From positions 1 to 22,269 of the IMG/VR virus record IMGVR_UViG_3300029448_000492: a DNA stretch of 22,269 nucleotides; one strand, given 5' to 3'. Each line of letters starts with the position of its first letter. Position 1 is the stretch's first letter. This DNA comes from a virus. A program made the translations under genes and the position numbers. Of this stretch, positions 9,965-13,345 are shown piece after piece. Below the pieces are notes generated by a model. It ran no database searches and was not told where the DNA came from. It saw only the letters and a program-made list of their open reading frames with translations.

Positions 9965-10062
9965 TTTCTATAACCCTCGCACTGCTTGTTTAAACAAGTC
10001 ATTTTAACCTTGTCATTATCGTATATTAGCGGTATACCACACTTAGGGCATGCTACCTTCAT
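9961..10062 (-). CDS. 33 aa zinc-ribbon micro-protein
   Basis: Short leftward frame from ATG 10062, preceded by AAGG 5 bases upstream, ending TGA in an ATGA overlap with terL. The peptide has a clear two-knuckle zinc pattern: Cys5-x2-Cys8 (CPKCG) and Cys23-x4-Cys28 (CLNKQC). The second knuckle is encoded by a copy of the 10-bp TGTTTAAACA palindrome, so Cys-Leu-Asn comes from that DNA site. Function unknown. Translational coupling to terL suggests a packaging or late role. Alternatively it is a small regulatory zinc protein. Confidence 0.7.
   Translation of the reverse strand: MKVACPKCGIPLIYDNDKVKMTCLNKQCEGYRK
9987..9996. repeat. TGTTTAAACA palindrome copy 1 (in 33 aa zinc-ribbon gene)
   Basis: Inside the zinc-ribbon gene; extends to the perfect 14-bp palindrome CTTGTTTAAACAAG (9985-9998). 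This is the leftmost copy in the window. Confidence 0.9.
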
Positions 10063-10479: not shown

Positions 10480-10737
10480 CTACCACATCTTGCAAGACCA
10501 ATATCTAGGGGTAGTTTTATCACTAGCGGTATCGCATTTGTGTCTAGCCCTAAATGATTTTCTTGCTTCAGGATTATCTTTTCTAATTTCCATGTTAGGG
10601 TCACCGAACATAACCTTCTTTACTTTGTCACCATCTTTGACATAGACCTTAAACTTTTTACGACCAAAGCCAGGTTCACCCTTACTAATCCTAGAAGGTT
10701 TATCAAGCGTGACTGTTCTACCTTGGTATTCGGCCAT
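10480..10737 (-). CDS. 85 aa protein with RHKC...YWSCKMW C-terminus
   Basis: Basic protein with a beta-rich middle (KFKVYVKDGDKVKKVMFGDP) and the characteristic end SFRARHKC...TTPRYWSCKMW. The two Cys and one His at the end could bind a metal. I recall the FGDPNM...RARHxC...YWSCKxW signature from small conserved proteins of marine phages, including cyanophage relatives, without a settled function. The start overlaps the stop of the 26 aa gene as TAATG, showing translational coupling in the late cluster. Confidence 0.8.
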   Translation of the reverse strand: MAEYQGRTVTLDKPSRISKGEPGFGRKKFKVYVKDGDKVKKVMFGDPNMEIRKDNPEARKSFRARHKCDTASDKTTPRYWSCKMW

Positions 10738-10920: not shown

Positions 10921-10951
10921 TAATAACACAAAACTCCACCGAAGTGGAGTT
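10921..10951 (-). terminator. Leftward intrinsic terminator with UUCG tetraloop, in front of the late cluster
   Basis: An 8-bp stem AACTCCAC/GTGGAGTT (10932-10939 with 10944-10951). On the minus strand the loop reads TTCG and the stem is followed by TTTTGTGTTATTA. It ends only about 30 bases before the first late gene, so it would act on transcripts started further right and could be an attenuation or antitermination point for the late operon. Confidence 0.75.
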
Positions 10952-11051
10952 CTGTCGTACAGTGTCCAAACTGTTATGAAAGAAAATGAAATGTACACAA
11001 ATCCATACTGAACAATGTCCTATATGAAAAGCATTCTTTCTTTTCTAATTT

Positions 11052-11289: not shown

Positions 11290-11322
11290 CATAAAAGAAC
11301 AAGACCTCGGTTGCCCGAGGCC
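11290..11322 (-). terminator. Leftward intrinsic terminator with GCAA (GNRA) loop
   Basis: GACCTCGG (11303-11310) pairs with CCGAGGCC (11315-11322). On the minus strand the 8-bp stem has one G-U pair and the loop is GCAA, followed by TCTTGTTCTTTT. It would stop leftward transcription coming from the ncRNA/intergenic side, just before the 34 aa gene. Confidence 0.65.
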
Positions 11323-11357
11323 TATGCTCTAATATACACAATAGAAAGGAGGAACAA

Positions 11358-11444: not shown

Positions 11445-12110
11445 GGAGGCACTACCAAAAAACATACCCTAAATAATTGTAATACATTTTTAATGTGGTA
11501 TTGTTACATTACAAACACAGTAGATTGCAGGCATTAAGAACAATCTACTCGATAAGAAACAAATTAAAGTGGACTTGCCTGACCATGGTAACTAGCGTAA
11601 AAGGCTATTATTCTACATTTGTTTAAATGCTGCGATATGGATTTAATTCGGTTTGGGAGGGCGTAGCACAGGGTAAGAACCACTATATATCTTATTTAAG
11701 AAACATTACTACAGTAAAGAAACAGAGGTAGTTTTACTAGAAGTTAACAGTATATTTTTAGAGGGTACACATATAAATAAGTGACACCCAACATTTAACC
11801 TCCCCCTGTTTTTATTGGTAGTTTTTACCAAATATAATTGTTATTTTGTTACAGAATACAGCATATATAACCTAAGATTGTTGCATTGTTTAAACAGTCT
11901 AAAAAGTAATAGGATAGAAATTTAAACAAGTACCCCCCGATTGATTTACAAGTAACATTTTATCAGCCCGCCTCTTCAAAAGTCTTCGGCCAAATCTTGC
12001 ACTAAAATGAAAAAGTTTTTTTCTAATTTCTAAAGTTTTTTTTCAGCCCCCCGAAATACCCTTTATTCATTGGGTTTCTTCACATATATTTTTTATCTAT
12101 TTATTCAACA
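11445..12110. other. Gene-poor divergent control region, about 670 bp
   Basis: No convincing gene. It contains a 9-bp perfect stem AGTAGATTG/CAATCTACT (11519-11527 with 11541-11549), a TTGGTA/TACCAA stem around 11810-11830, one copy of the palindrome (11887), a near copy AATTTAAACAAG around 11920, two T-rich runs near 12015 and 12043, and a GAAA-ACCC/GGGT-TTC imperfect hairpin near 12052-12080. A 34-codon frame at 11627-11731 has no ribosome site. The region lies between the leftward late and rightward early genes, so it is a likely home of promoters and perhaps a replication origin. Confidence 0.5.
11887..11896. repeat. TGTTTAAACA palindrome copy 2 (control region)
   Basis: Intergenic copy with short symmetric flanks ATTG...CAGT. 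It lies about 230 bp upstream of the candidate ncRNA promoter. Confidence 0.9.
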
Positions 12111-12114
12111 GTTG

Positions 12115-12148
12115 TTGACAGGATAGAGGAAACCTGCTTGACTATATA
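12115..12148 (+). promoter_or_regulatory. Candidate rightward promoter of the structured RNA
   Basis: A perfect TTGACA (12115-12120) is followed by the AT-rich box GACTATATA (12140-12148). The spacing is 19 bases to GACTAT or 22 to TATATA, longer than the usual 17, so a standard sigma-70 promoter is uncertain. It lies just upstream of the purine-rich RNA segment, and a related TTGACTAT occurs at 13284 upstream of the SprT-like gene. Confidence 0.35.
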
Positions 12149-12160
12149 CATACACAAAAG

Positions 12161-12533
12161 AGAGGGGGCCAGGCCCTTCAGATAATAGCCCTGGAAAATG
12201 AGCAAGAACAGAAACCATTCGGAGGGTGTTTCAACTAAATACCTGGAGAGAGGCATAAGGCCCCAGGATACAGCCCAAAGAATGATAATCGGAAAAACTA
12301 GATGCCAGGGTGTAACCAGGCTAACCGATTAGCCGAAACAAAGTAGGCCACTGAAGGAGACTTTTAAATTCAACCTCATAAGCGAAAAATCTAAGCTAAG
12401 GAAACTTGAGACAATCGGTAAAACGCTAGAGAGATAGCATCAAACTAGCAGCCCCAGGGTTCTACGATATCAAGCCAACTTTACGCGAGGGAGCCAACAG
12501 CAGACAGGCCGCACAATCTTTCTAGCCCCCTTT
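12161..12533 (+). ncRNA. Candidate structured non-coding RNA, about 370 nt
   Basis: No open frame with a start site covers this segment on either strand, and its composition (purine-rich, more G/C than its surroundings) differs from neighbouring genes. The ends pair over 9 bp: AGAGGGGGC (12161-12169) with GCCCCCTTT (12525-12533), one G-U. Internal elements include a CCTGG/CCAGG hairpin with an inner GGC/GCC (12242-12267), GGCTAA-CCGA-TTAGCC (12319-12334) and GCTA/TAGC (12425-12438). ACCGATT (12324-12330) is complementary both to AATCGG at 12287 and to AATCGGT at 12413, suggesting a pseudoknot or a switch. A promoter-like box precedes it and a hairpin with T-run follows. I cannot match it to tmRNA, RNase P RNA or a group I intron. 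Large ornate phage RNAs (GOLLD, ROOL) are a comparison only. Confidence 0.6.
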
Positions 12534-12535
12534 AT

Positions 12536-12563
12536 AAAATGCATCATCGTGGTGCATTTTTAT
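12536..12563 (+). terminator. Hairpin with T-run after the ncRNA
   Basis: AAAATGCATC (12536-12545) pairs with GGTGCATTTT (12551-12560) around ATCGT, one G-U, followed by TAT. The A-run/T-run flanks make it terminator-like in both directions. The Shine-Dalgarno of the next gene starts right after it (12564), so it may instead be a partial terminator or leader hairpin. Confidence 0.5.
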
Positions 12564-12577
12564 AGGAGGAAAGAAAT

Positions 12578-12856
12578 ATGAATATAAAGTTAGAAAAACA
12601 AATAATAGATAGATGCGTTGAGAGAACAGACGAATTTAACGAGATTGTTTGGACGCTCAGAAATCTTGACACTATTAGCGATGATGATTTAATAACAGCC
12701 CAAAGTAAATTGGGAGTTACTTTATCAAAATTATTCGCGTGGTCACCGAGCTTAATTGCTACAGTATTTGTTTACGCTATGGAAGATAGCAACGCCCATT
12801 CTTTCAATGAAGATTTAATCAAATTGATTGAAAAGCATAGATATCAGCAAGATTAA
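12578..12856 (+). CDS. Unknown 92 aa protein, first rightward gene
   Basis: Mostly helical, acidic protein; no family recognised. ATG 12578 follows ATAGGAGGAAAGAAAT, a strong ribosome site. There is a Ser/Leu-rich middle (LGVTLSKLFAWSPSLIATVFVYAME) that could be a buried helix rather than a membrane span. As first gene of the early region behind a hairpin and the structured RNA, its expression may be coupled to that RNA by read-through. Function unknown. Confidence 0.75.
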   Translation: MNIKLEKQIIDRCVERTDEFNEIVWTLRNLDTISDDDLITAQSKLGVTLSKLFAWSPSLIATVFVYAMEDSNAHSFNEDLIKLIEKHRYQQD

Positions 12857-13241: not shown

Positions 13242-13312
13242 ACTACTCATTGTTTAAACAGTGAGTAGATAGGTAGTTATTAATTGACTATCCGACATTA
13301 TTCAACTAATGT
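13242..13312 (+). promoter_or_regulatory. Intergenic module B with palindrome copy 4
   Basis: CTACTCATTG (13241-13250 region) pairs with CAGTGAGTAG around TTTAAA, a nearly perfect 10-bp stem with one T-G. GATAG/CTATC (13268-13292) and ACATTA/TAATGT (13295-13312) follow. TTGACTAT at 13284 could be a -35-like box. The Shine-Dalgarno TATAGGAGG comes next. Confidence 0.65.
13251..13260. repeat. TGTTTAAACA palindrome copy 4
   Basis: Intergenic, centre of the 26-nt hairpin of module B. Confidence 0.9.
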
Positions 13313-13345
13313 TGATATATACACAAAAAATATAGGAGGCAAAAA

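Follow-up and report, generated by a model that had tools for sequence, protein, structure and literature searches.

A compact pseudoknotted RNA at the head of a phage operon that looks like a new structured RNA family

Introduction

Few large structured RNAs are encoded by phages, and most of them have no known function. The put RNA of phage HK022 is a short two-hairpin element. GOLLD and ROOL, which phages and prophages carry, are large and ornate and have been studied by cryo-EM; ROOL env-120 measures about 660 nt, many GOLLD RNAs exceed 800 nt, and both are often located near tRNA islands (PMC12286853). Phage RNA anti-CRISPRs (Racrs) are small, mimic CRISPR repeats, and show by example that a phage RNA can act in trans to counter its host (PMC10651486).

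Here we analyzed IMG/VR record IMGVR_UViG_3300029448_000492 over its full 22,269 nt (hereafter, the window), and describe a locus that looks like a new RNA family on sequence comparison, the newness covering family and architecture and not a demonstrated mechanism. GOLLD and ROOL are nearest to it in style, being likewise phage-borne, highly structured, pseudoknotted, and of unknown function, and GOLLD likewise combines a conserved region with a less conserved one. However, a GOLLD or ROOL member would be roughly 600 nt or longer and tRNA-associated, while the RNA body described here spans 254–365 nt (20 members with both ends) and a tRNA search of the window returned none; it also stands at the head of an operon, matches no Rfam family, and has its own architecture, with a 5' pseudoknot and a single long-range core helix. 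Like the putRNA/EAR leaders, it lies directly behind a promoter and precedes the first gene of a rightward operon that is probably early. In contrast to these leaders, it is much larger, occurs once per record, is followed by a strong hairpin, and appears unrelated in sequence and fold, as compared through Rfam scans, in which no family matched. It resembles phi29 pRNA as a phage-encoded structured RNA near packaging genes, but this phage has an ordinary large terminase (phrog_38) rather than the phi29-type packaging ATPase that pRNA serves. Unlike in Racrs, nothing repeat-like was seen. Given that the RNA is smaller than GOLLD and ROOL and offers many compensatory changes, a clear phylogenetic boundary, and natural 3' domain swaps, it represents a tractable test case, in a phage group that offers relatives both with and without it.

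Results and Discussion

Genomic setting and extent of the locus

Leftward genes of the window encode the large terminase, a protein distantly similar to Streptomyces phage portals, and a 1865-codon ORF, while rightward genes encode a DUF2958 protein, an annealing protein, a lysozyme-like domain, and a weak SprT-like match. The leftward genes end at 10737 and the rightward ones start at 12578, leaving a 1.84-kb gap in which no ORF reaches 60 aa. Given that terminase and portal are only ∼24% identical to the nearest sequenced phages, this phage group has no isolate in the collections searched. A guess at an actinobacterial host via WhiB was not borne out, as WhiB was not found. The wider phage group is abundant in public data, with at least 596 confirmed terminase relatives in IMG/VR, and the RNA itself was found in ∼30 contigs.

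The long intergenic region also carries, on the minus strand, two strong terminator-like hairpins (10928-10955 and 11302-11323). A second intergenic element, at 11567-11677, is kept in 31 loci, including clades without the RNA, and several relatives show a compensatory change in its hairpin, with TAGG..CCTA in place of TAGC..GCTA; this element could be either a DNA site or a further RNA.

The RNA occupies the rightmost part of the gap:

12150-12513 (+): structured RNA body, supported by the match to covariance model R1, alignments, and a helix table of 22 members

We placed the 5' end from the promoter and the 3' end at a conserved CGCA behind the last hairpin, so that the RNA extends over ∼12150-12513 with a tail on to ∼12563, compared with 12161-12533 in the first-pass annotation. 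That annotation had noted that no gene fits and that composition differs from the surroundings, and both observations hold: no ORF in the stretch reaches 60 aa, and its GC content (0.43–0.48) and AT skew (∼+0.4) contrast with upstream values of ∼0.32 and ∼0, respectively. The sole forward ORF (12198-12332, 44 codons) lacks a Shine-Dalgarno sequence, overlaps helices H2 to H6, and is neither conserved nor open in relatives, and a coding reading was therefore rejected.

Distribution among related phages

Relatives were retrieved via searches with the terminase and the third rightward gene and via DNA patterns, and were sorted into three RNA groups: A (window, L085/L014, L112/L012, L089, L086, and the more distant L091, L093, and L094), B (L102, L095, L099, L096/L005, L097, L101, L116, and L019), and C (L087/L025, L006/L114, L034, L036, L039, L041, L104, L105, and L108). 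For covariance model R1, we used the eight group C sequences and a structure predicted automatically, leaving out groups A and B. R1 nevertheless matched window positions 12151-12389 (E = 1.1e-13), group B (E = 1e-24 to 1e-19), and the remaining group A members (E = 1e-15 to 3e-6), and all of its matches in groups A and B were at the expected syntenic place and orientation. Among the matches listed, 28 distinct uncultivated phage contigs, counted by name and including the window, carried the RNA at the same place with E < 1e-5, and incomplete contigs L013 and L016 added two members; other weak R1 matches (E = 0.02–1) were treated as chance, these two contig-end ones excepted. In all 16 whole records carrying the RNA it was single copy, and R1 detected no second copy in any of them.

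Eight relatives with 70–75% terminase identity (L052, L058, L059, L061, L063, L071, L073, and L076) shared the upstream region and lacked the RNA, and R1 gave no match anywhere in the complete L059 and L076 records. On this comparison, the RNA appears to be universal within one phage clade and missing from sister clades; given that sister phages live without it, it is not a core function. These observations bear on the possibility of a DNA-level element, such as an origin or packaging site, or of a pRNA-like packaging RNA. Although the locus adjoins a long conserved intergenic region and the terminase gene is ∼2 kb away, packaging can evidently proceed without the RNA, as phages with a 70–75% identical terminase lack it, a further difference from phi29 pRNA, and the GNRA loops and G-U pairs described below mark a folded plus-strand RNA. 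We therefore consider such an element or packaging RNA highly improbable.

Elsewhere, four pattern matches in GTDB bacterial genomes were inspected and rejected as chance, with the helices present in none, and direct DNA searches of sequenced phages and plasmids gave no matches or short chance ones. In Rfam 15, the window had no match at the gathering cut-off and only unrelated low-scoring matches at relaxed E-values up to 10, and six relatives had none overlapping the RNA at E up to 5. A keyword search of open-access papers found no description of it.

Architecture and covariation

The fold starts with an H-type pseudoknot, continues into a multibranched core, and reaches the 3' domain through a conserved joint. 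The elements are as follows, with window coordinates and, where they differ among relatives, the pairings observed:

12162-12166/12175-12179 (+): H1 hairpin, 98.9% of cells paired; GAGGG/CCUUC in the window, AGAGG/CCUCU, GAGAG/CUUUC, GAGAG/CUCUU, AGAAG/CUUCU, AGUUG/CAACU, AGAUG/CAUCU
12169-12173/12190-12194 (+): H-type pseudoknot formed by the H1 loop, from covariation and permutation; CCAGG/CCUGG in the window, CCGAG/CUCGG, CUAGG/CCUAG, CUGGG/CCCAG, CCUUA/UAAGG, CUUAG/CUAAG, CCGA/UCGG
12198-12202/12375-12379 (+): H2, long-range helix enclosing the multibranched core, found by RNAalifold in two alignments; AUGAG/CUCAU in the window, GUGAG/CUCAC, AUCGG/CCGAU, GUGGU/ACCAC, GUGUU/AACAC
12216-12220/12280-12284 (+): H3a, CAUUC/GAAUG, two-sided changes; a conserved UGU..ACA adjoins H3
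12224-12226/12274-12276 (+): H3b, GGG/CCC, two-sided changes
12242-12246/12263-12267 (+): H4, from covariation, absent from most of group C; CCUGG/CCAGG in the window, CUCGG/CCGAG, UUCUC/GAGAA, CCUUG/CAAGG
12252-12254/12260-12262 (+): H4b, the tip, GGC/GCC, GCC/GGC in relatives
12288-12292/12325-12329 (+): H5a, AUCGG/CCGAU, many two-sided changes; H5 examples are AGAGA/UCUCU, UAGCC/GGCUA, GUGAG/CUCAC, UAAGG/CCUUA
12304-12307/12318-12321 (+): H5b, GCCA..AGGC, two-sided changes
12332-12348 (+): H6 hairpin, from covariation, with a GCAA (GNRA) loop in L112, L086, and L091; GCC/GGC in the window, CCC/GGG, ACC/GGU, CUC/GAG, UUC/GAA
12354-12363 (+): H7 hairpin AAG-GAGA-CUU with a GNRA tetraloop, from covariation, the loop being mostly GNRA among members and CGAA in group B; AAG/CUU in the window, AGG/CCU, AGA/UCU, GCC/GGC, GUG/CAC, GUC/GGC, GUC/GAC, GCU/AGC
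12380-12389 (+): conserved joining segment AAGCGAAAAA, from conservation across members, of which AGCGAAAAA is kept in all members except for one substitution in L019
12390-12513 (+): 3' domain, present in the window in its long form, ending in CGCA
12425-12429/12445-12449 (+): H8, GCUAG/CUAGC, in the 3' domain
12493-12495/12507-12509 (+): H9, last hairpin, GCC/GGC, with its 5' strand beside the loop AACAGCAGACA

Single-sequence folding energy was unremarkable (MFE z-score of −0.8 on the plus strand and −0.7 on the minus strand, the latter folding no better than its own shuffles). The z-score was rejected as a criterion because it is uninformative, thermodynamics alone would miss this RNA, and the argument is instead a comparative one, based on relatives. 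A single MAFFT alignment of all groups misaligned H5 and gave a poor RNAalifold fold (−5.7), and groups were therefore aligned separately. RNAalifold applied separately to groups C and A recovered a common core of H2, H3, H5a, H5b, H6, and H7, plus H1 in group C, and plus H4 and the pseudoknot strands in nested form in group A. These independent folds together with R1 are the unbiased part of the structural evidence.

In an alignment of 22 sequences fitted to R1, 33 of 40 pairs had two-sided (compensatory) changes. Paired cells amounted to 90.8%, a figure to be read beside the slid-partner control of 33–40% because this alignment leans to the R1 structure and leaves most of H5b unaligned in group A and B members; none of 500 shuffles reached any of five measures. 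Of the 54 pairs in a helix table made by hand, 45 had two-sided changes, and canonical pairing was seen in 358 of the 371 cells of distinct strand pairs vs. 62% when strands were re-dealt, values biased upward because registers were picked by eye; a script placed all strands automatically and in order for eight members only, its spacing limits and one overlap having excluded the others. Another script placed the 5' strand of H9 at 12474-12476 instead of 12493-12495. The distinct strand pairs included 10 G-U cells vs. 6 A-C, which, together with the GNRA loops, identifies the plus strand as the folded RNA.

Automatic folding misses the pseudoknot together with H1 because the pseudoknot helix crosses H1. 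In 14 distinct loop-linker pairs, the longest stretch of perfect complementarity averaged 5.2 nt vs. 3.0 nt with shuffled linkers, and the observed total was not reached in any of 1000 permutations. The idea that unconstrained intergenic sequence folds this way by chance, which the z-score of −0.8 would suit, is refuted by the covariation and also disagrees with the R1 E-values and the synteny, leaving it a negligible probability. Based on sequence comparison, selection on the RNA and its fold at the syntenic locus is well supported.

These results also refine the pairings proposed previously. The several internal hairpins anticipated by the first-pass annotation are real and backed by covariation, while its nine-base-pair closing helix (12161-12169 with 12525-12533) does not stand: although possible on paper, it uses a strand of the conserved H1 and would break that helix, it is impossible in group C, and both of its sides are nearly invariant where it could form. 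A shorter terminal helix, with candidates AAUAGA/UCUAUU in group C and AGAAAGA/UCUUUCU in L086, was not supported either, being no better than permutation (4.36 vs. 4.12, 66/500). Of the two alternative partners suggested for ACCGATT, AATCGG at 12287-12292 corresponds to the well-supported H5a, but the one near 12413 is not conserved; in L085 and L112 it is not complementary, with H5a there reading AGAGA/UCUCU and AGAGG/CCUCU. All seven CCAGG/CCTGG words reported are present, six of them in three separate helices (pseudoknot, H4, and H5b) and the seventh (12454) unpaired in the model. Given that these three helices have unrelated sequences in relatives, the words belong to independent helices and are not the arms of a switch; the annotation had suggested that they could form alternative helices. 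The broader suggestion of a large phage RNA class not described before, or of a remote relative within a known class, is supported by the lack of a significant Rfam match in the window or six relatives and by the abundance of compensatory changes in homologues.

The 3' domain behaves differently from the core. L099 and L101 are nearly identical as far as the joint and then differ, and the 3' domain of L108, a group C member, ends in ACCAACAGCAGAUAGGUCGCA, as in group A. H9 has eight different pairings among members, always with CGCA directly after. As judged from these comparisons, the 3' domain is exchangeable behind the core and joint.

Promoter, downstream hairpin, and the possibility of a cis-acting leader

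Three features frame the RNA:

12115-12143 (+): sigma70-type promoter, TTGACA (12115-12120), 17 nt, TTGACT (12138-12143)
12105-12118: inverted repeat TCAACA-GT-TGTTGA, read from sequence, overlapping the −35 box, a possible operator
12536-12563 (+): terminator-like hairpin AAAAUGCAUC..GGUGCAUUUU (12536-12560), 11-nt arms, 91% complementary, then UAU

The promoter-like box already noticed before the RNA proved to be TTGACA directly upstream, kept in relatives: TTGACA, 17 nt, and a −10-like hexamer were found in all 16 listed group A and B members, including the window, and in L087/L114, while most group C members have TTGGCA instead. The −10 hexamers of relatives (e.g., TATATT, TATAGT, and TATTGT) end 9–12 nt upstream of the RNA reference start. 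In the window, the −10 box (TTGACT) is weak, and the promoter falls below the threshold of a generic scan. The inverted repeat across the −35 box suggests regulation, and is imperfect in some relatives (e.g., TCAATG-GT-TGTTGA). At the same site, group C members L036, L041, and L108 have a different imperfect palindrome, TGACAACATAAGTTGGCA, which suggests exchange of the regulator at the RNA promoter. A partial second operator- or promoter-like copy, TTATTCAAC..TGTTGA followed by ATATATACACAAAA, occurs in the window at 13298-13339, before the SprT-like gene.

The terminator-like hairpin annotated after the RNA was likewise borne out: it stands between the RNA and the Shine-Dalgarno sequence of the first gene, and a strong hairpin separates CGCA from the first start codon in every relative, measuring ∼11 bp in the group of the window and reaching ∼26 bp in group B. 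The group B and C hairpins differ from classical GC-rich intrinsic terminators. Group B loci (e.g., L096:2904-3060) carry near-perfect hairpins of 20–26 bp from the RNA to the first gene, whose stems are kept while their insides vary among close relatives. The first downstream gene itself varies among relatives, encoding unrelated proteins of 48–238 aa, while the RNA is constant.

In all relatives, the RNA directly follows the rightward operon promoter, where put-type elements also lie, and it could be a cis-acting leader that, attached as nascent RNA, modifies RNA polymerase (processive antitermination, as with HK022 put/EAR) or controls the rightward operon. No downstream gene is conserved enough to require control of its own, a situation compatible with an operon-wide antiterminator. 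However, the RNA occurs in one copy per record, not per operon, is far larger than put RNA, and is separated from the genes by a strong hairpin that is terminator-like in the window's group. Moreover, a 7.7-kb scan of the operon yielded three plus-strand terminator-like sites (both strands, ten vs. 5.4 in shuffles), leaving little clear need for antitermination. We regard a cis-acting leader as less likely than a stand-alone RNA, but as its main rival.

Possible function of the RNA

We consider that 12150-12513 on the plus strand probably represents a new family of structured non-coding RNA, one that stands alone and acts in trans; the RNA and its fold are well supported by sequence comparison. 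Trans action is favored by the variable downstream gene next to a constant RNA, the single copy, and the strong separating hairpin. Against a stand-alone RNA count its invariable position upstream of an operon, which would also suit a cis role, the non-classical separating hairpins of groups B and C, the weak −10 box of the window, and a sequence that points to no target. From the 5' H-type pseudoknot, such a molecule would lead through a multibranched core, held by the long-range 5-bp helix and bearing GNRA-capped hairpins, to the AAGCGAAAAA joint and the 3' domain. Host RNA polymerase would transcribe it first in infection, from the upstream promoter, and the hairpin behind it, as a terminator or nuclease site, would set it apart from the mRNA. 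Once folded, the RNA could then act in trans, alone or as an RNA-protein particle, on a host component as a decoy, inhibitor, or scaffold, with the 3' domain conferring variable specificity. More tentatively, we suggest an undescribed class of trans-acting RNAs made from the onset of infection, a compact pseudoknotted particle with interchangeable 3' domains that disables or redirects a host machine, which may be the polymerase, ribosome, a nuclease, or a defense system.

The same architecture might instead suit a catalytic or self-processing element, a ribozyme cutting or splicing the early transcript, perhaps at the CGCA end: a large multibranched pseudoknotted fold with GNRA loops and invariant unpaired AAGCGAAAAA, CAACUAAAU, and CGCA is in the style of large ribozymes. 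Nonetheless, no Rfam ribozyme or intron model matched, even at relaxed thresholds, and there is no interrupted gene nearby, which makes catalysis improbable.

Finally, the window contains 13 copies of the palindrome GTTTAAAC vs. 0.8 expected (at 9988, 11888, 12876, 13252, 14079, 14534, 15415, 15952, 16682, 17425, 19789, 20648, and 21480). This palindrome is possibly a processing site, an operator, or an mRNA end signal; it is often the center of hairpins separating rightward genes, and also occurs near genes of relatives without the RNA.
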